From positions 1 to 30,412 of the IMG/VR virus record IMGVR_UViG_3300020162_001386: a stretch of DNA of 30,412 bases, one strand, 5' to 3'. Positions 4,060 to 30,412 of this stretch are shown here, in pieces. The position numbers and the translations under genes are program-made. Numbering within the stretch: position 1 is the stretch's first letter; the number at the start of each line of letters is the position of its first letter. The DNA comes from a virus. The notes below the pieces were generated by a model. It was not told the DNA's origin. It searched no databases and saw only the letters and a program-made list of their open reading frames with translations.

Positions 4060-4374
4060 ATGGGCACCCCCACTACCGGCTACCTCAAGGCGTATGCGGA
4101 CGCGGACACGCCGCTGACGCTTTACGTGCGCACGGAGGAAGGCCGCGCCGTTTTGACGGGCGAGTCTGCCCCCGTGCTGCTGGTGTCCATGCGCCGCTTT
4201 GGCAGTCAGGTGCCGGTGAGTACGCTCCCCGCGACGGGTGACGCCTTGGGGAAGGTCACGTTCACCGTGACGGCCAGCGAGGTGAAGCGAACCCTTTTCC
4301 CGGGCACCTACGCCTACCGCCTTACGGCTGACGGCGTCCACGTTCAGGACGGCGTCTTTGAGGTCGCTGCGTAA
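4060..4374 (+). CDS. Small all-beta phage protein, unknown
   Basis: This 104-residue protein alternates short beta-prone stretches (LTLYVRTEEGRAVL, APVLLVSMRRF, KVTFTVTASEV, TYAYRLTADGVHV). The pattern is consistent with an immunoglobulin-like sandwich such as those in decoration or baseplate proteins. No specific family is claimed. It sits immediately before the small terminase, and its stop shares a base with the terminase ATG (TAATG), so the two are translationally coupled. Confidence 0.6.
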   Translation: MGTPTTGYLKAYADADTPLTLYVRTEEGRAVLTGESAPVLLVSMRRFGSQVPVSTLPATGDALGKVTFTVTASEVKRTLFPGTYAYRLTADGVHVQDGVFEVAA

Positions 4375-4763
4375 TGGCTGCCGGCCGCCCAACGCTCTAT
4401 GACTCCGCGTATTGCGAACGGGTTGTCGAGCTTGGCATGGAGGGCAAGAGTCGGGCGCAGATTGCCAGCGCGCTAGGCGTTGCGAAGGCAACAATCCAGA
4501 ACTGGGAGGCCTCGCATCCAGAATTTCTGGCCGCAATGACACACGCGAGGGACGAGGCGCAGGCGTGGTGGGAGGGCATGGGCCAAGCTGGCCTGACCAT
4601 GCAGGGCTTTAACGCCTCGCTGTGGGCTAAGAACGTGTCGTGTCGCTTCCGTGAGGACTACAGCGAGCCGAAGAATGTCATTCTGTCCGGTGACGCTGCT
4701 AACCCTGTACGCACGGTCAACCGGGTTGAGATTGTGGCCGTGGAGGCCAAGGCGGGCGATTGA
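4374..4763 (+). CDS. Terminase small subunit (DNA recognition)
   Basis: A 129-residue protein opening with AAGRPTLYDSAYCERVVELG and a helix-turn-helix at about 26-45 (SRAQIASALGVAKATIQNWE), followed by a helical segment. This arrangement is typical of small terminase subunits that recognise the packaging site and stimulate the large-subunit ATPase. It lies directly upstream of the large subunit, separated only by a 57-residue ORF. A pac site may lie within this gene, as in P22, but none can be located by reading. Confidence 0.78.
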   Translation: MAAGRPTLYDSAYCERVVELGMEGKSRAQIASALGVAKATIQNWEASHPEFLAAMTHARDEAQAWWEGMGQAGLTMQGFNASLWAKNVSCRFREDYSEPKNVILSGDAANPVRTVNRVEIVAVEAKAGD

Positions 4764-4933
4764 GCGATCACCCATACCGCCGACAGGTTGAGCTTGCGCG
4801 GGCGCTTGTTGCTGCTGACGACAAGGCGAAGGCCGACGCGCGGCGTGGGGTGCCTTCGGACGATTTCGACGGGCTTAGGGATGCGCGCTGGGCGCTTGCT
4901 GACTTTCACCGCGAATGGCTTGGGCTTGAATGA
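4760..4933 (+). CDS. 57-residue ORF between the terminase subunits
   Basis: A TTG overlapping the small-terminase stop (TTGA), preceded by GGAGGCCAAGGCGGG, opens a 57-codon frame. Its TGA overlaps the large-terminase ATG. The product is charged and probably helical (HPYRRQVELARALVAADDKAKADARRG... broken into a second helix ending WALADFHREWLGLE). Overlaps at both ends and the good ribosome site argue that it is translated. It may be an accessory packaging peptide; the function is unknown. Confidence 0.6.
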   Translation: MSDHPYRRQVELARALVAADDKAKADARRGVPSDDFDGLRDARWALADFHREWLGLE

Positions 4934-6210
4934 CGACGCTACGGGTGCAAATCCCGAGGCCCATGCTGCCCTTCGCCACCGAGCGAAAGCGGCACAAGGT
5001 CGCAAGGGGCGGGCGAGGTTCCGGCAAGTCGTGGAGCATCGCCCAGCTACTTATCGTAAGGGCTTACGCCGAGCCGATCCGGTGGCTGTGCTGCCGCGAG
5101 GTCCAGAAGTCGATCAAGGAATCCTCAAAGCGGCTGCTAGAGGATCAGGTTGCGGCCCTTGGGCTGTCGTCGCACTTCGAGGTACTGCGCGACTCCATCC
5201 GTGGGGCTAACGGCTCGGAATTCGCCTTCGCTGGCCTGCGCGACCATACCGCCGACAGTCTGAAGTCCTACGAGGGCTTCGACGGGGCATGGATTGCCGA
5301 GGCGCATAGCGTCTCCGAGCGCTCGGCCACGGTGCTGAGTCCGACGATCCGCAAGCCGGGGTCGGAACTCTGGTGGGATTACAACCCCGACCAGGAGGAT
5401 GATTTCGTTCACCAGTTGGCCGAGCGTCCCGACGACGACACACTCGTCGTGACGATGAACTGGCGTGACAATCCGTGGTTTCCGACCGAGCTAGAGAAAG
5501 AGCGCCGGAAGCTGCTTGGGCTGAATCAGGACCTTTATCGCCACGTTTGGGAGGGCGAGTGCCGCAGTAACGCGGGCCTCCTGTTTAAGCGCGATTGGTT
5601 CAAGTTCTACGACCGGAAGCCCGAGCGCCTGTCCATCTACATCGCCAGCGACTACGCGGTAACGCCTGACGGCGGCGACTACACGGAACACGGCGTATGG
5701 GGCCTGTCGGATACCGGCGACCTGTACGCGCTGGATTGGTGGCACGGCCAGACCGACCCCGCCACGTGGATCGATGCGTGGATTGAGCTTTGCAAGAAGT
5801 GGAGCCCGCTCAACGCATTTGAGGAAGCGGGCGTGATCCTTCGCGCGGTGGATGGGTCGATCACCAAGCGGATGAGGGAAACGCAGACGTTCACACGTCG
5901 AACGGCTCTAGCGTCTGCCGGTGCCAAAGCGGAGCGCGCCTTGGGCTTCGCGGCTCGCGCGTCTGCCGGCGCGGTGTACCTGCCAAGCGGCCCTCTATGG
6001 GCCACGCGCCTGCTGAACCAGCTTTGCGCCTTCACTGGCGAAGACGGCAGGCCGGATGACGCGGTGGACGTTTGTAGCCTTATCGGGCGCGGGCTTGACC
6101 ACATGCACAACGCCAGCGGAAGCGGCGACGAGCCGAAGCGGCGCAGCCGGCTGGACGACTATGGCCCCGGCGAAGGCGACGGACAAGAATCCAATTGGAA
6201 GGTGGCATGA
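4930..6210 (+). CDS. Terminase large subunit (packaging ATPase/nuclease)
   Basis: This 426-residue protein is the motor that packages DNA into proheads. The Walker A motif is GGRGSGKS (27-34, Lys33). A Walker B-like strand is GFDGAWIAEA (116-125), with Glu124 as the likely catalytic residue. The coupling-type motif ELWWDYNPD is at 146-154. The RNase H-like nuclease half starts at IYIASDYAV (Asp241), with further acidic residues in GRPDDAVDV near the C-terminus. Length and motif order fit the PBSX/Terminase_3-type group. The start overlaps the preceding small ORF, and the stop overlaps the portal ATG. Confidence 0.93.
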   Translation: MTTLRVQIPRPMLPFATERKRHKVARGGRGSGKSWSIAQLLIVRAYAEPIRWLCCREVQKSIKESSKRLLEDQVAALGLSSHFEVLRDSIRGANGSEFAFAGLRDHTADSLKSYEGFDGAWIAEAHSVSERSATVLSPTIRKPGSELWWDYNPDQEDDFVHQLAERPDDDTLVVTMNWRDNPWFPTELEKERRKLLGLNQDLYRHVWEGECRSNAGLLFKRDWFKFYDRKPERLSIYIASDYAVTPDGGDYTEHGVWGLSDTGDLYALDWWHGQTDPATWIDAWIELCKKWSPLNAFEEAGVILRAVDGSITKRMRETQTFTRRTALASAGAKAERALGFAARASAGAVYLPSGPLWATRLLNQLCAFTGEDGRPDDAVDVCSLIGRGLDHMHNASGSGDEPKRRSRLDDYGPGEGDGQESNWKVA

Positions 6211-23527: not shown

Positions 23528-23757
23528 GGCTGGCACTCATTAAGCATCTTCTCGATGGCGTCGCGGAGCGCAGGCCATTCCTCGCTAGTGATTGCGACAC
23601 GCCCCGGCGTAAGGCTTGCCTCCTGCAAGACCTCCACGTATTCGCCAGCGCCCTCGCTGGTGATGCGGATAGTTGTTGCGTAGTCGCTGTAAACAGACTC
23701 GCCCTCACGATACACGATGACTGCCATCGTGCGGCAGGCGTAAGAGTGCGCGATCAT
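23524..23757 (-). CDS. Hypothetical protein, 77 residues
   Basis: The product (IAHSYACRTMAVIVYREGES...) is a small mixed alpha/beta protein with an acidic middle (RITSEGAGEYVEVLQEASLT) and a helical C-terminus (EEWPALRDAIEKML). ATG 23757 overlaps the preceding stop. An internal ATG at 23727 would also be possible. No family was recognised. Confidence 0.6.
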   Translation of the reverse strand: MIAHSYACRTMAVIVYREGESVYSDYATTIRITSEGAGEYVEVLQEASLTPGRVAITSEEWPALRDAIEKMLNECQP

Positions 23758-24002
23758 GGCTCCCCCATCGCCTTGATGGCAGCGTCTGCCCTTGCGAGCC
23801 ACACATCCTCTCTATTCAGCCCGTGCGTATTCGCGTCGTGGATCGTCCTCGCCACCCGCTCCCGATCCGGCGTGAGGCGCGGCTTGAGGCGCTGCCAGCA
23901 CACGGCATCGATCTCGTCGCCGTGCTTCATCACGACATCCTCGACAACTTGGATGCAGTCGAGAACGTTCCCGCCCCCCGTGTCGATCTTGATTTCACTC
24001 AT
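23754..24002 (-). CDS. Hypothetical protein sharing a C-terminal motif with its neighbour
   Basis: An 82-residue protein. Its C-terminal half (RLKPRLTPDRERVARTIHDA...LARADAAIKAM) resembles that of the next upstream gene, and a 29-base stretch coding RLTPDRERVA is repeated with one mismatch. The N-terminal half is unrelated and acidic. The ATG overlaps the upstream stop. The function is unknown; the shared helix-rich tail suggests duplication or a common partner. Confidence 0.62.
   Translation of the reverse strand: MSEIKIDTGGGNVLDCIQVVEDVVMKHGDEIDAVCWQRLKPRLTPDRERVARTIHDANTHGLNREDVWLARADAAIKAMGEP
23851..23879 (+). repeat. 29-bp direct repeat, copy 1
   Basis: These 29 bases are identical except for one base to 24147-24175. 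On the minus strand they encode the LTPDRERVA motif in two adjacent genes. Confidence 0.85.
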
Positions 24003-24271
24003 TGCGATCCTCCTGCACCCTGAAATGTGGCGGGCGGCGCAGCCTGCGCCGCGTCGATGGCGGCATCGGCTGCTTGCAATAGCGCCGGCCTGTCGTGCCT
24101 GTCAGTCTCCCAGCCGTTATCGTTCAGTACGTCCATGATCGCCATCGCCACCCGCTCACGATCCGGCGTGAGGCGGGCGCGGAGGCGCTCTAACGCAGCC
24201 GCTTTGTCGGCGAAACCAAAGTGCCGCGCTTCGTCAATGCAGAAGTTCAGCCATTGCAATTCACTTGTCAC
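23999..24271 (-). CDS. Hypothetical protein with LTPDRERVA motif, 90 residues
   Basis: From GTG 24271 the product has a helical N-terminus (LQWLNFCIDEARHFGFADKA), then ARLTPDRERVAMAIMDVL shared with the downstream neighbour, and an Ala-rich tail. The start overlaps the previous gene by 11 bases with GGGGGTGGG upstream. The pairing of two adjacent genes with one motif points to local duplication. The function is unknown. Confidence 0.6.
   Translation of the reverse strand: MTSELQWLNFCIDEARHFGFADKAAALERLRARLTPDRERVAMAIMDVLNDNGWETDRHDRPALLQAADAAIDAAQAAPPATFQGAGGSQ
24147..24175 (+). repeat. 29-bp direct repeat, copy 2
   Basis: Partner of the copy at 23851-23879, with a single mismatch at the twelfth base. 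It encodes the same LTPDRERVA peptide in a neighbouring gene. Confidence 0.85.
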
Positions 24272-25765: not shown

Positions 25766-26030
25766 CGTCCGGGGGCTGGTCGTTGCTCTGGGCTGGCGGA
25801 GCCGCAGGCAGTGGCTTACCTTCGCCCCTGGGCTTCCAGTCGTTAATCTGCGCGTAGCCCTTGCCTTCCTGACTGCGCTTCAAATCGACGTACACCGGGC
25901 CGCTCTGGCGCTTCGCCCATTCGATGATGCGTTCCGGCTCAATCTTGAGCGCGCCCAAGACGTACTCCGGCGCACCGTCGCGGGGGAGGTTGAAGTACAG
26001 GCCGGGGATGAATTTTTCCTTGTCGCTCAT
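25749..26030 (-). CDS. Small recombination partner with SSB-like C-terminal tip
   Basis: A 93-residue protein beginning EKFIPGLYFNLPRDGAPEYV, with a compact beta-rich body (VYVDLKRSQEGKGYAQINDW), a Pro/Gln linker and the terminal residues DDDIPF (88-93). That acidic tip is identical to the end of E. coli SSB, where it recruits repair and replication proteins. No complete OB fold is obvious, so it may be a reduced SSB-like protein or a mimic of the tip. It follows the ERF gene (TAATG), which supports a role in single-strand annealing. Confidence 0.7.
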   Translation of the reverse strand: MSDKEKFIPGLYFNLPRDGAPEYVLGALKIEPERIIEWAKRQSGPVYVDLKRSQEGKGYAQINDWKPRGEGKPLPAAPPAQSNDQPPDDDIPF

Positions 26031-26713
26031 TACGCCGCCTTTCTCGCTTCATGCGCCTTTTTCAGCGCGGTTCGGGTCTTGGAATCAAGGCGCGTCCACA
26101 ACGCCGCCTTTTCATCCGTGTTGAATGCCTGACGTTCGATGAACTCCCACGCGCCAGCGGAGTCGCCCGACTCGATGAACTCGACAATCGTGGCGGCGCA
26201 CTTGAGCAAACCGGCCTGCGTCTCGCGGTCAACCGCCTCCCACGCGCCGCTTGTGGGCTGGCCTTCGGGCTTGGCGCGGGGCTGAACCTCATGCGTCGTC
26301 GCGTCGGCGTCGTTGTCGCCTTCGGTCGGGATGGCGAACGCCTGCATCGCGGCGTACTTGTAAGCGGCGCTCATGGCCTTGTTGGTGGCCTTGTCGCCGC
26401 TGTCCATTGCCTCGCCATACATCGGCCCAACGGTGTGCTTGCTGCCGTCCTCGGCGCACACAAAGTCGAACTCAGCTTCGACCGTCACGTAGAACAGCGC
26501 GGTTCCGTTCTTGTTGACGCGCTCCACGACTTCGCGGGACTTGCAGCGCGGCAGGATGCAAAGCGCGTTCTTCGCCAGGATCGGCGCGAGCGCGTTGTAC
26601 ACGTCGTCAATGCCTCGGAACTGGTAGCCCTGCTGTTCGTTCTTGCGGGCCTTGCTGATGCCATCCTTCGCCAGTTCCGCCTGCACGGCGGCGATTGCCT
26701 TATACACGCTCAT
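26030..26713 (-). CDS. erf: ERF-family single-strand annealing protein
   Basis: A 227-residue recombinase. The N-terminal domain carries the ERF superfamily pattern: SKARKNEQQGYQFRGIDDVY near residue 20 and GDKATNKAMSAAYKYAAMQA followed by FAIPTEGDNDAD near 105-135. A linker and a helical C-terminal domain follow. ERF proteins anneal complementary strands; in P22 Erf circularises the genome by recombination between terminal repeats. AAGGAG seven bases before ATG 26713 fixes the start. The stop overlaps the SSB-like gene. Confidence 0.9.
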   Translation of the reverse strand: MSVYKAIAAVQAELAKDGISKARKNEQQGYQFRGIDDVYNALAPILAKNALCILPRCKSREVVERVNKNGTALFYVTVEAEFDFVCAEDGSKHTVGPMYGEAMDSGDKATNKAMSAAYKYAAMQAFAIPTEGDNDADATTHEVQPRAKPEGQPTSGAWEAVDRETQAGLLKCAATIVEFIESGDSAGAWEFIERQAFNTDEKAALWTRLDSKTRTALKKAHEARKAA

Positions 26714-27186: not shown

Positions 27187-27361
27187 TCCTGGCCCTCCGC
27201 TTTGGCGATGGCGGCGCGGCGGCGATTAGGCGGGCGTCGGTTTCGGGGAAAGTGCGCTCGCCAAAGGTGCAGACGACGCTGTCACCGTCACCAACAACGC
27301 ACGGCGAGCCGTAACCAAGAATGCGGCCAAGCAACCACGGCCCCGGCGTATGCGCGATCAT
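27176..27361 (-). CDS. Short HTPGPW-type phage protein, probably frameshifted at its end
   Basis: The 61-residue product starts IAHTPGPWLLG and carries TDARLIAAAP, a combination common in small phage proteins and present again in the gene at 30122. After AAAP the sequence turns to SPKRRARNER, and the stop lies inside the next gene. A one-base shift in the GCC/GCG run would give AIAKAEGQE and a TGA overlapping the next ATG, the junction typical of this operon. A frameshift or truncation is therefore likely. Confidence 0.55.
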   Translation of the reverse strand: MIAHTPGPWLLGRILGYGSPCVVGDGDSVVCTFGERTFPETDARLIAAAPPSPKRRARNER

Positions 27362-27714
27362 TTGCCCGCCTCGTGCGCGCGAAATCCTCGCCAGATTCCC
27401 TCCGCCATTTCCGCCCACTGTTCGCGCTGCTTTTCGCGGTGCGCGGCGGCATCATCGGCCAGCTTCCGCACAGCTCCATCGGCGCGATCCATCGCAGCTT
27501 GAGCGGCGTACACATCGCGGAAGGCTGCGGCCAATTCCTCGTCGCCAACGTCCGGCTTTTCAGCCTCGCGCCAGTCGGCCAAGCGAGCGTTCACCGCCTC
27601 GCGGATGATCCGGCCCGCCTCCAAGTCATCACCTGCAACGATGGCGGCGGCGATGCGCTCACGGACGCGGAAAATCGCACTGTCGATGGCGTCGAGCAGG
27701 GTCAGGTCGCTCAC
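27358..27714 (-). CDS. Hypothetical helical protein, 118 residues
   Basis: An acidic, helical protein (LTLLDAIDSAIFRVRERIAA...) with an Ala-rich central part and a charged tail (KQREQWAEMAEGIWRGFRAH). GTG 27714 overlaps the previous stop. There is no membrane segment and no recognised family. Confidence 0.6.
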   Translation of the reverse strand: MSDLTLLDAIDSAIFRVRERIAAAIVAGDDLEAGRIIREAVNARLADWREAEKPDVGDEELAAAFRDVYAAQAAMDRADGAVRKLADDAAAHREKQREQWAEMAEGIWRGFRAHEAGK

Positions 27715-28046
27715 GGGGCGCCCCTCTCGTTCAGTTGGTCGATGGCGTCGTCAAGGAAGTTCGACTGGGTGTCCTGCGCGATGCGGTCGAGGGCCAGTAC
27801 AAAGTTCGCCAGAACCGCCGTGGCGAAGTCGGCGGCGATGCCCGCGCGGTCGGCGTGCTTGGCCTTGTAGAGGCGCAGCGCAAGCGCGGCAACATCTACG
27901 CCCTCGCCTTCTGAAACGGCCTGCGCGGCGGCCTCCTGATTCTTGGCGTCTTCACACGCCAGCTCATATGCCAGTTCGTCGGCCTCATCGTTGCCGGCCA
28001 TGTGCGCGTCAACTGCGCTGGCCAGGAATGCGTCGAAGTTGCTCAT
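27711..28046 (-). CDS. First gene of the leftward operon, hypothetical, 111 residues
   Basis: An acidic helical protein (SNFDAFLASAVDAHMAGNDE...) with no helix-turn-helix. It is not a CI-type repressor even though it lies where one is often found in temperate phages. GGAGGAA precedes ATG 28046; the open frame continues to 28094 without a ribosome site. A hairpin (28059-28075) sits in its leader. Confidence 0.65.
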   Translation of the reverse strand: MSNFDAFLASAVDAHMAGNDEADELAYELACEDAKNQEAAAQAVSEGEGVDVAALALRLYKAKHADRAGIAADFATAVLANFVLALDRIAQDTQSNFLDDAIDQLNERGAP

Positions 28047-28058
28047 TGCTTCCTCCGT

Positions 28059-28392: not shown

Positions 28393-28404
28393 GGGGCTAA
28401 ACCC

Positions 28405-28635
28405 ATGCCGTGCCCAACAGGAAAACAGCAGTACACCACCGCCGCCGCAGCGTCCCGCGTCAAGGCCGCATCGGACAAGCGCCATGGGAAGGGAAAGGCC
28501 GGTGGCTGGCACAAAGGCCCCGCGATGGTCTACCGCTGCCGCGAGTGCGGGCAGTGGCACATAGGCCATTCGGTCGCGCCTCTCCGCAACGCTCGCCCGC
28601 GCTATGAGCCCGTGTGCGATTGGAGCTTCGCTTGA
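28405..28635 (+). CDS. Small phage protein with zinc-knuckle-like motif
   Basis: A 76-residue basic protein opening PCPTGKQQYTTAAAASRVKA. Its central YRCRECGQWHIGH (about 43-55) is a CxxC...H arrangement shared by a recurrent phage family with an YRC..C..WH.G signature. It may bind zinc and nucleic acid; the role is unknown. GAGGGG lies upstream of ATG 28405. The stop overlaps the next start. Confidence 0.65.
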   Translation: MPCPTGKQQYTTAAAASRVKAASDKRHGKGKAGGWHKGPAMVYRCRECGQWHIGHSVAPLRNARPRYEPVCDWSFA

Positions 28636-28937
28636 TTTCCCCCGCCAAGCCTTACGCCGAAGTCATGAGCGGCGGACAGCCCGAGCCCTCCGGGTTGACG
28701 TGTGCGGATTCCTTGAAGGCGTCGAAGGGGCAGGAAATGACCGCAGTCATCAAGCAGCAGGATCAGATTGAAGTGTTCGTCAACGAGGCCGGAAGCATCA
28801 CTCTGAAGCAGACGAACCCGCTTGGCGAGGAGCAAATCATCGTGTTCTGGCGCGAGCATTCGGGGCGCATTTGCGACGCCATCGACGCAGCCGCCCGCGA
28901 TGCCGAGATTGACGAGATTCAGGGGCGCGGCGAGTAA
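28632..28937 (+). CDS. Hypothetical protein, 101 residues (internal start possible)
   Basis: TTG 28632 overlaps the previous stop and follows GGAG at 28621-28624. The conserved-looking part begins at Met36 (TAVIKQQDQIEVFVNEAGSI...), whose ATG at 28737 has AAGGGG upstream, so a 66-residue product is a real alternative. The body is beta-prone, then helical and acidic (CDAIDAAARDAEIDEIQGRG). The stop shares a base with the replication gene. The function is unknown. Confidence 0.55.
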   Translation: MISPAKPYAEVMSGGQPEPSGLTCADSLKASKGQEMTAVIKQQDQIEVFVNEAGSITLKQTNPLGEEQIIVFWREHSGRICDAIDAAARDAEIDEIQGRGE

Positions 28938-29842
28938 TGGACTGGTTCCGCTGGCACCACGGAAGCGTCACCGACCCCAAGTTTCAGCTTGTGGCGAAGA
29001 AGGCCAAGGCGTCCGTCGCGGAAGTCGTGGCGGTTTGGGCTTACGTGCTGGAAACGGCAAGTCAGAACCCCAAGCGCGGCCACGTTGGCGGACTCGACGC
29101 CGAGGCTATCGACCTGGCCCTTGGCATGGATGACGGGACGACCGCAGCGATTCTGGCCGTCCTGAATGATCGCGGGATTCTCTCCGATGGCCGGATTGCC
29201 GCTTGGGAGAAGCGCCAGCCGAAGAAGGAAGACGAAACCGCGGCGGATCGCCAGCGGCGCAAGCGCGAACGGGAGCATGAACTGGCGTTGGCCGCTATTT
29301 CGGCCAGCGTGACAGATGACATGTCACGCCATGTCACGCCATGTCACGCAGCGTCACGCCCCGTCACGCTAGAGGAGAAGAGAGAAGAAGAGAAAGATCA
29401 AAAGCAAGATCAAGAGCAAAAGCATGAGCGCGTGCCGCGCTCGGCTGGCCGGTTCGAAGACTTCTGGCAGGCCTACCCGAACAAGAAAGGCCGCAAGGAC
29501 GCCGAGGCTACGTGGCGTCGGAAGGGTCTCGACGCTGAGGCCGACACGATCATCGCTGACGTTCGCCGCCGCGAGAAACACGACCGCGACTGGCTCAGGG
29601 GCTACGCGCCCCACGGATCGACCTACGTCAACGCCGAGGGCTGGCGCGACGGATTGCCGCCAACGCCTTTGCCGCAGCAACCGGCACAGATGCAGCCCTC
29701 CCGACAGATGCAAGCAATCCAAAACCTACTGCGAGTGACGCCCCATGAAAGCAACGAACCCGCCAACCTGGTTCATCTCGACGCTGGAAACGGCTTTGGC
29801 TCAGACCTACTCGCTCTGCCTCCCCGGCTCGCCGGGGGCTGA
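28937..29842 (+). CDS. Phage replication initiator (lambda O-like)
   Basis: This 301-residue protein has three parts. The N-terminal domain (about 1-105: WFRWHHGSVTDPKFQLVAKK, GILSDGRIAAWEKRQPKKED) has the winged-helix pattern of phage replication proteins. A basic linker spans about 105-170, and its codons carry the iterons. The C-terminal domain (RFEDFWQAYPNKKGRKDAEA...GSTYVNAEGWRDGL) is shared by many phage replisome proteins and probably contacts the helicase loader. Like lambda O, it would bind repeats inside its own gene to open the origin. The start shares a base with the preceding stop. Confidence 0.78.
   Translation: MDWFRWHHGSVTDPKFQLVAKKAKASVAEVVAVWAYVLETASQNPKRGHVGGLDAEAIDLALGMDDGTTAAILAVLNDRGILSDGRIAAWEKRQPKKEDETAADRQRRKREREHELALAAISASVTDDMSRHVTPCHAASRPVTLEEKREEEKDQKQDQEQKHERVPRSAGRFEDFWQAYPNKKGRKDAEATWRRKGLDAEADTIIADVRRREKHDRDWLRGYAPHGSTYVNAEGWRDGLPPTPLPQQPAQMQPSRQMQAIQNLLRVTPHESNEPANLVHLDAGNGFGSDLLALPPRLAGG
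29307..29369 (+). repeat. Iteron cluster, probable replication origin
   Basis: Five tandem 10-bp units ending in GTCACGC lie at 29320-29369: three exact CATGTCACGC copies, then AGCGTCACGC and CCCGTCACGC. One inverted copy, GCGTGACA, is at 29307-29314. The 10-bp period puts every unit on the same face of the helix and cannot be explained by codons. It sits in the linker of the replication initiator gene, as in lambda ori. Confidence 0.72.
29371..29430 (+). other. Purine-rich, A-rich segment beside the iterons
   Basis: Bases 29371-29397 are all purine, and the following 30 bases remain A-rich with two GATC sites. In a GC-rich genome this is a local low-stability stretch, placed like the AT-rich unwinding region next to lambda O-binding sites. 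It encodes the Glu/Lys/Gln-rich linker. Confidence 0.55.
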
Positions 29843-30125
29843 CGTACTGCCCGCGACGGCTGCTACTTGGGCTGACGACCTGTGGCACGACCCGCGTTAC
29901 TCGTGGGCTGACCCTGACACCGACCGCGCGCGCATCGCTCACGCCTTCCGCCAGCTTCGCCGCAACTGCGAGCGTTGGCCGACCCTCGCGGACTTTTCCA
30001 AGGCGCTGCCGCCGCCGCTCGAGGTTCCGGCGTTGAAGCACCAGCCGTGCAGCCCCGAGCAAGCTGCCGCGAACGTGAAGCGCCTGCAAGCGATGGTCGA
30101 GGAAATGTTCGGGGTGAAGTCGTGA
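29745..30125 (+). CDS. Replication-associated protein after the initiator, 126 residues
   Basis: ATG 29745 lies 98 bases inside the end of the initiator gene in another frame. The protein has an N-terminal helical domain (PTWFISTLETALAQTYSLCL...), a Trp-rich acidic middle (TWADDLWHDPRYSWADPDTD), then HAFRQLRRNCERWPTLADFS and a helical tail. Such proteins follow initiators in related phages and may act like lambda P or ninB-type accessories; no motif settles it. The stop overlaps the next GTG. Confidence 0.6.
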   Translation: MKATNPPTWFISTLETALAQTYSLCLPGSPGADVLPATAATWADDLWHDPRYSWADPDTDRARIAHAFRQLRRNCERWPTLADFSKALPPPLEVPALKHQPCSPEQAAANVKRLQAMVEEMFGVKS

Positions 30126-30412
30126 CCGCGCATACCTTCGGGCCTTGGGTTGCTGAGTGCGACCCCAGTCACTTCGACACGCTCTCTACGGTTGTCGCTG
30201 GCGAAAAGCGCGAGTCGAAAGGCATCGACCGTCAAATGATCGTGCAAGTTGGCGGATGGGCTGACTGGCGCGAACAGGAAGCCAATACGCGCCTAATCGC
30301 CGCCGCGCCGGAGTTGCTGCACGTCGTTCAGTGGGTGCGCGATTGCGAGTCGCTTCGCAGGGAAAACGGCGAAAGCGGGTTGCATGACGACCTAGTTAGC
30401 GCCATTGACGCC
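30122..30412 (+). CDS. HTPGPW/RLIAAAPELL-type phage protein (runs off the end)
   Basis: GTG 30122 overlaps the preceding stop. The 97 visible codons read TAHTFGPWVAECDPSHFDTL..., then ANTRLIAAAPELLHVVQWVR, a phrase pair typical of small phage proteins of unknown function. A second, shorter copy lies on the minus strand at 27176-27361 and shares 21 identical bases. The frame is open at the window end. In a circular genome it would continue into the partial frame at base 1 and end at base 63. Confidence 0.65.
   Translation, partial: MTAHTFGPWVAECDPSHFDTLSTVVAGEKRESKGIDRQMIVQVGGWADWREQEANTRLIAAAPELLHVVQWVRDCESLRRENGESGLHDDLVSAIDA

Follow-up and report, generated by a model that had tools for sequence, protein, structure and literature searches.

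Phage origins of replication that lie within a gene are known from the lambda group, and initiator–origin pairs with a readable specificity code are few. Iterons of the lambda type come four to six together and are long imperfect palindromes of about 18–20 bp, and the lambda O initiator carries its DNA-binding part first and its partner-binding part last. The oriO of lambda has four iterons and that of Stx phages six, longer than the repeats described here and bound by O dimers, and unwinding in lambda needs no more than two iterons together with the AT-rich region (PMC7466680). In the PLE satellite, RepA keeps its C-terminal domain while its DNA-binding domain covaries with the origin and is swapped together with it as a module; the PLE origin is noncoding and consists of three semi-palindromic iterons of about 30 bp (PMC8263062).

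The locus described here lies in a viral record of 30,412 bases, analysed as a whole and referred to hereafter as the window. It resembles oriO of lambda and Stx phages in that a candidate origin sits in the middle of an initiator gene with several iterons beside an easily melted region, and in that iteron number alters the length of the protein (PMC7466680). Unlike these, the family of the window has 3–7 non-palindromic direct repeats of 10 bp and a purine tract with a 5-bp period. The first-pass annotation had called the locus lambda-like with much shorter repeats, which was borne out for the layout, with in-gene iterons between the DNA-binding and C-terminal parts (the same order as in lambda O) and an adjacent weak duplex, but not for the ancestry of the protein: no match to a lambda O family in Pfam was obtained for the window protein (E values up to 1) or for its N-terminal relatives, a result still compatible with distant kinship. 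As in PLE, the DNA-binding domain covaries with the candidate origin, the two being exchanged as one module, and the C-terminal domain is conserved; unlike in PLE, the origin of the window family would be located in the gene, the rule linking it to the protein can be read at the level of residues, and RepA_N is another domain (PMC8263062). A literature search (weak evidence, with subscription papers mostly outside it) found no description of 10-bp in-gene iterons or of a helix code. From the comparisons reported below, the repeats are most probably a phage theta-type origin inside the gene of its own initiator, which would be read by a basic helix, with an adjoining tract that is opened and a helicase that is recruited.

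The window protein matched PHROG 9474, 'replication initiation protein' (E 5.7e-24), with residues 1–262 aligned to positions 1–273 of the 288 in the profile. No sequence relatives of its N-terminal part were found among solved structures, and the best structural neighbours of the winged-helix model were the wHTH domains of CAP/CRP (Z 7.8, a middling score). The N-terminal phage replisome organiser family Phage_rep_org_N (PF09681), an annotation used for some named phages, gave no match with the window protein and low profile similarity to a small number of relatives, the best being L018 (E 0.0016; 18.9 bits against a curated cut-off of 23.3). The C-terminal domain was 84–89% identical in L004 and L006 and is common to initiators with other DNA-binding parts; a structure comparison of its fold returned no PDB match. 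Within the basic helix, the residues of interest are R105, Q106 (codon at 29252–29254), K109 (29261–29263) and R110, of which Q106 and K109 occupy the positions designated X and Z below.

Table 1. Features of the candidate origin and its initiator gene, in window positions.
Feature	Position	Strand	Evidence or remark
Replication initiation protein gene, 301 aa, contains candidate origin	28937..29842	+	ORF; PHROG 9474
Winged-helix domain, residues ~14-95	28976..29221	+	AlphaFold2 with 94 relatives, mean pLDDT 87
Basic helix, residues 100-113 (ETAADRQRRKRERE), proposed iteron reader	29234..29275	+	AlphaFold2 separate helix; covariation with iteron type
Single inverted GTCACGC copy (GCGTGAC)	29307..29313	-	Not conserved among relatives
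Iteron 1	29320..29329	+	CATGTCACGC
Iteron 2	29330..29339	+	CATGTCACGC
Iteron 3	29340..29349	+	CATGTCACGC
Iteron 4	29350..29359	+	AGCGTCACGC
Iteron 5	29360..29369	+	CCCGTCACGC
Purine tract (AGAGGAGAAGAGAGAAG...), 52 nt, proposed unwinding element	29371..29422	+	Adjoins last iteron
Cassette junction (L007 similarity 28937-29404; L004/L005 similarity 29411-30129)	29404..29411	.	DNA comparison
C-terminal all-helical domain (FWxAYPxKxGRKDA...TYVNxxxWxD), predicted to recruit a partner	29453..29650	+	AlphaFold2 helices, pLDDT 72

The five tandem 10-bp units and the single inverted unit of the first-pass annotation were both present, the former at 29320–29369 in the linker of the initiation gene. Each unit contains GTCACGC, at 29323–29329, 29333–29339, 29343–29349, 29353–29359 and 29363–29369, with an exact spacing of 10 bp. 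The window has 20 copies of this heptamer where 8.2 (sd 3.0) were expected, a count reached in none of 100 shuffles, and a triple array of it was found at a single location in the whole record. When the gene was resampled so as to preserve the protein, five units in a row at 10-bp spacing arose in 34 of 200,000 resamples with the gene's own codons, the repeats being included in that codon pool; uniform codons gave none in 200,000. The inverted unit was rejected as a conserved element, being absent on inspection from the linkers of relatives. GC skew across the window tracked gene direction and was uninformative on the origin.

When viral contigs and genomes of prokaryotes were scanned, 132 distinct genes with the N-terminal domain emerged, 102 after reduction of redundancy in the linker. 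A purine tract was recognised in 94 of these 102, with 10-bp iterons immediately 5' of it. The repeats, mostly 3–7 cores phased at 10 bp (sometimes 11), were in the same place in varying frame and with varying unit sequence. The 66 nt that precede the tract contained 518 pairs of identical hexamers at a lag of 10, where protein-preserving resampling gave 26.1 (sd 7.2; at most 44 in 200 resamplings), and spacings of 11, 20, 21, 30 and 31 were also elevated. The ACG core of the iterons used all three codon frames (175/153/93). In the tract itself, pairs at a lag of 5 numbered 356 against 8.5 after protein-preserving resampling. The tracts were 92% purine, and their GC content was 39% against a background of ~63%. 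In 88 of 94 genes the tract ranked in the weakest 1% of duplex windows (±1.5 kb), and in 68 of 93 it began 5–6 bp past the A of the final ACG core. The first-pass description of the stretch following the iterons as purine- and A-rich needs correcting: it is a purine tract, with a 5-bp period in relatives, and not just rich in A.

A period of 10 or 5 bp held in changing frames cannot be due to selection on the protein, and selection must act on the DNA. The same argument had been made at first pass from the fact that 10 is not a multiple of 3, and it gained from the resampling, which removed the signal, and from the use of all frames; selection on protein repeats was therefore rejected. Tandem repeats can arise by slippage, and phage initiators commonly have charged linkers of low complexity, so that selection on the linker peptide, or functionless slippage, might be thought of as the source of the array. 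Such an origin of the repeats seems scarcely credible given the loss of signal on protein-preserving resampling, the use of all codon frames, and the retention of units across divergent relatives with their type matched to a helix. The comparison of repeats in homologous initiators that had been called for thus revealed phased repeats kept beside the weakest duplex with frames and units changing, and homologues with the amino acids conserved and the repeats missing, which would have spoken against an origin here, were not found as a rule. The exceptions were L151 and L154, from one metagenome bin with several paralogues, which had an A..W helix and zero copies of CGAACG in the gene; possibly these are decayed copies or have their origin elsewhere. 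The sequence comparisons thus support an intragenic iteron origin that is family-wide and extends beyond the window.

Many relatives, including L123, L121, L136 and L140, had a second iteron cluster in the coding part of the winged helix (~codons 38–60), which was not present in the window. In type it matched the linker cluster, with 267 cognate copies against 71 when shuffled (maximum 117), and it set the amino acids of the protein loop, which changed with it: SVTQGDADVTRGDV for GTGACG, SATQCNADATRGNV for GCAACG and ASNATERGRT for CGAACG. Initiator iterons often control expression too, and these second clusters could be control sites, which would suit a view of the repeats as an autoregulation operator or an incompatibility or copy-control site, bound by the initiator without being a start of replication. 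We regard that view as improbable, because the linker array is in mid-gene, not at a promoter, and abuts the weakest duplex at fixed spacing, all of which fits an origin. Downstream of the initiator, a gene for a DnaB-like helicase was found in L121 and L127 and one for a P-like loader in L140; the other seven ORFs tested downstream of relatives gave no helicase or loader match, and the window ends shortly past the initiator, ahead of any helicase gene.

The variable bases of the iterons among relatives were the two before ACG (-2/-1 in G-NN-ACGC). Iterons were more uniform within than between genes at position -1 (0.84 vs 0.40) and at position -2 (0.65 vs 0.40). With iteron types called under an assumed AC[G/A] core, the column of the N-terminal domain most informative on type was residue 106 (0.34), followed by another helix column (0.16). 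Residue 106 belongs to the motif S/A-T/A-E/D-R-X-x-x-Z-R-x-R in the predicted separate helix at 100–113. When the helix was aligned on its first Arg, normalised covariation with iteron type was 0.68 at +1 (X), 0.61 at -3, 0.50 at +4 (Z) and then 0.44 at -2; it was low at -1, +3, +6 and +9, placing the signal on one face (-3, +1, +4). All helices had Arg at 0, and 91 of 93 also had it at +5.

A tally of gene consensuses, covering the 157 genes to which an iteron type could be assigned, suggests that residues X and Z of the helix match iteron bases -2/-1. K..Q helices went with GTC (47/48), V helices with GNA (33/33), T helices with GTG (10/10), and Q..F/H and K..W helices with GTA and GGA, respectively (3/3 each). 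A..W helices were paired with CGA in 24 of 27 genes, the remaining three having CAA; S..W likewise had CGA (6/6), and S with another Z had GCA (15/17). The window helix is Q..K with GTC, where K..Q is usual.

An initial set of 93 genes served to fix the rule, which was then put to 68 non-redundant genes that three later scans had newly supplied. The held-out prediction was correct in 50 of 55, against a mean of 23 and a maximum of 36 in 10,000 label shuffles, a comparison that overstates independence since the relatives share ancestry. Two of the misses (L234 and L240) were ties between CAAACGC and CGAACGC; L184, L214 and L230 had an unexpected type and are true or unclear exceptions. A further exception was L371 (1192–1980), in which a Q..Y helix went with a GTGACGTCAC palindrome and not with the expected GTAAC repeats. 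In L257, L259 and L260 (initiator ORFs beginning near locus position 2000), a T5orf172/MUG113 (GIY-YIG-like) domain replaced the basic helix and the phased repeats were gone along with it, and the remaining protein, including the C-terminal initiator part, continued. These recall the origin-directed nuclease Odn of phage ICP1, a fusion of RepA_N with T5orf172 (PMC8263062), with the C-terminal initiator part kept in the three proteins reported here.

The winged helix might itself read the iterons, the basic helix gripping the backbone only and covarying through adjacency and inheritance as a block. The predicted fold is indeed a DNA-binding winged helix, the blocks are exchanged as cassettes (see below), and, because helix and iterons are adjacent, part of the covariation could be joint inheritance. 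A tree from which the helix had been left out required at least 31 changes of iteron type, and the independent contrasts on well-supported branches were few, five in all, each in the predicted direction (p 0.06). Against such a role, the best winged-helix column reached 0.15 for iteron type and the helix up to 0.68 (in an alignment on its own motif), and block inheritance does not predict a signal confined to one face of the helix. In addition, L010, L012 and L017 have close winged helices, different iterons and correspondingly different helices. Iteron-first scans for triples of GTTACGC and GTAACGC returned mostly unrelated tandem repeats; L359 (6925–7524) and L366 (10706–11638, minus strand) alone were initiator-like with a matching helix, V..H or V..Y, and had other N-terminal parts. 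Both carried GTAACGC sites 3' of the helix, two direct and three or more inverted, and L368, a relative of L359, combined a Q..F helix with GTAACGC. Of the two, L366 could itself be a remote winged-helix protein, and a search for relatives of L359 and L366 among phage records found none. On this evidence we consider reading by the winged helix unlikely, and take the basic helix as the candidate reader in what follows.

The basic helix invites comparison with bZIP proteins. In Pap1, the base-contacting positions of NxxAQxxFR are N86, A89, Q90, F93 and R94 (PMC7261193), and the covarying offsets of the initiator helix (-3, +1 and +4) together with those of its Arg residues (0 and +5) coincide with these five. 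Half-sites are TGAC for Gcn4 and TTAC for Yap proteins (PMC3334620). As in Pap1, Gln and Phe at the specificity positions correspond to GTAAC, which is the TTAC half-site on the other strand with the flanking G that is contacted by Arg82. The helix departs from the bZIP signature (NxxA....R) in that N and A are replaced by S/A and the invariant R, Arg at +5 being kept; it also differs from bZIP proteins in that no leucine zipper was seen, a variable linker follows, and the sites recur in one orientation every 10 bp and do not form a palindrome bound by a dimer. C/EBP proteins have Val at the X position. They bind GTAAT and GCAAT sites (PMC10941009), and this dual binding together with Val parallels the permissive V class of initiator helices. 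Sequence kinship to bZIP proteins was considered and rejected: a short query modelled on L095, with one letter changed, gave no PDB bZIP match, and no Pfam bZIP match was obtained at E values up to 10 in ten relatives. The resemblance is therefore probably one of mechanism, and convergent, and the helix was not filed as bZIP because two signature residues differ, the zipper is absent and the repeats are direct. A bZIP-like helix insertion in a prokaryotic protein has also been proposed for bacterial RptR; unlike the initiator with its direct repeats in a candidate replication origin, RptR is a transcriptional repressor that acts as a dimer on a 6-bp palindrome (PMC12255303).

Evidence for exchange came from comparison with relatives. 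The DNA of L005, from a related phage, was 79–84% identical to the window upstream (27358–28057 and 28404–28637) and downstream (29411–30129), and between these conserved flanks it had a different N-terminal domain and different repeats. The swapped repeats are palindromic, as in the unit GGAACCCAGTGGGTTCC from the corresponding gene of L004; the linker there (907–965) has units of ~17 bp that are spaced about 21–22 bp apart (G[G/A]AACC-N5-GGTT) and are nearer to lambda iterons than the repeats of the window are. Conversely, L007 shared DNA similarity with the window over exactly 28937–29404 and nowhere else. The replacement in L005 and the sharing with L007 imply that the DNA-binding domain, the iterons and most of the tract travel as one cassette, and the same exchange implies that the C-terminal domain is reused with other DNA-binding parts.

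These sequence features, namely the repeats, selection at the DNA level, the fixed layout, the adjacent weakest duplex, cassette exchange and a predictive residue-to-base rule, suit a model in which initiator monomers would bind head-to-tail along a single face of the DNA, each helical turn offering one of the five 10-bp iterons. The main reader would be the basic α-helix just past the winged helix, placed in the major groove, with its invariant Arg residues touching fixed bases and X and Z selecting the two bases before ACG. The array would strain and then open the adjoining purine tract, and the C-terminal helical domain would bring in the replicative helicase or its loader. From the layout of relatives and the analogy with lambda we infer binding, opening and helicase recruitment; groove contacts, head-to-tail assembly and actual use as a start site are proposed in the same sense.

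We lean somewhat towards a wider reading, in which phage initiators of a large family recognise their origins by a lone bZIP-like helix with two side chains coding for two bases, specificity is switched often through both residues and all iterons, and some charged linkers (REEKSREE, DKDKDK) are the translated shadow of origin DNA. The odd repetitive linkers of certain phage replication proteins would then be explained. If the rule is true, the origins of many uncharacterised phages and prophages could be located by sequence, the iteron being predictable from the initiator with a reverse check possible, and the family would provide a natural series of matched protein–DNA pairs for studying joint change of initiator and origin specificity. 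It would also suggest that bZIP-like reading of DNA arose in bacterial viruses without the zipper.

Some additional genes were observed at these loci. L110 has a second replication-initiation-like gene (4308–5213; PHROG 3729) downstream of its first initiator. In the window, an Erf-type single-strand annealing protein (PF04404, E 1.7e-21) is encoded upstream of the initiator on the opposite strand (26030–26713, minus strand). Further upstream, two neighbouring small ORFs on the minus strand (23754–24002 and 23999–24271) have the common motif RLTPDRERVA..., which suggests that they encode duplicated small phage proteins.
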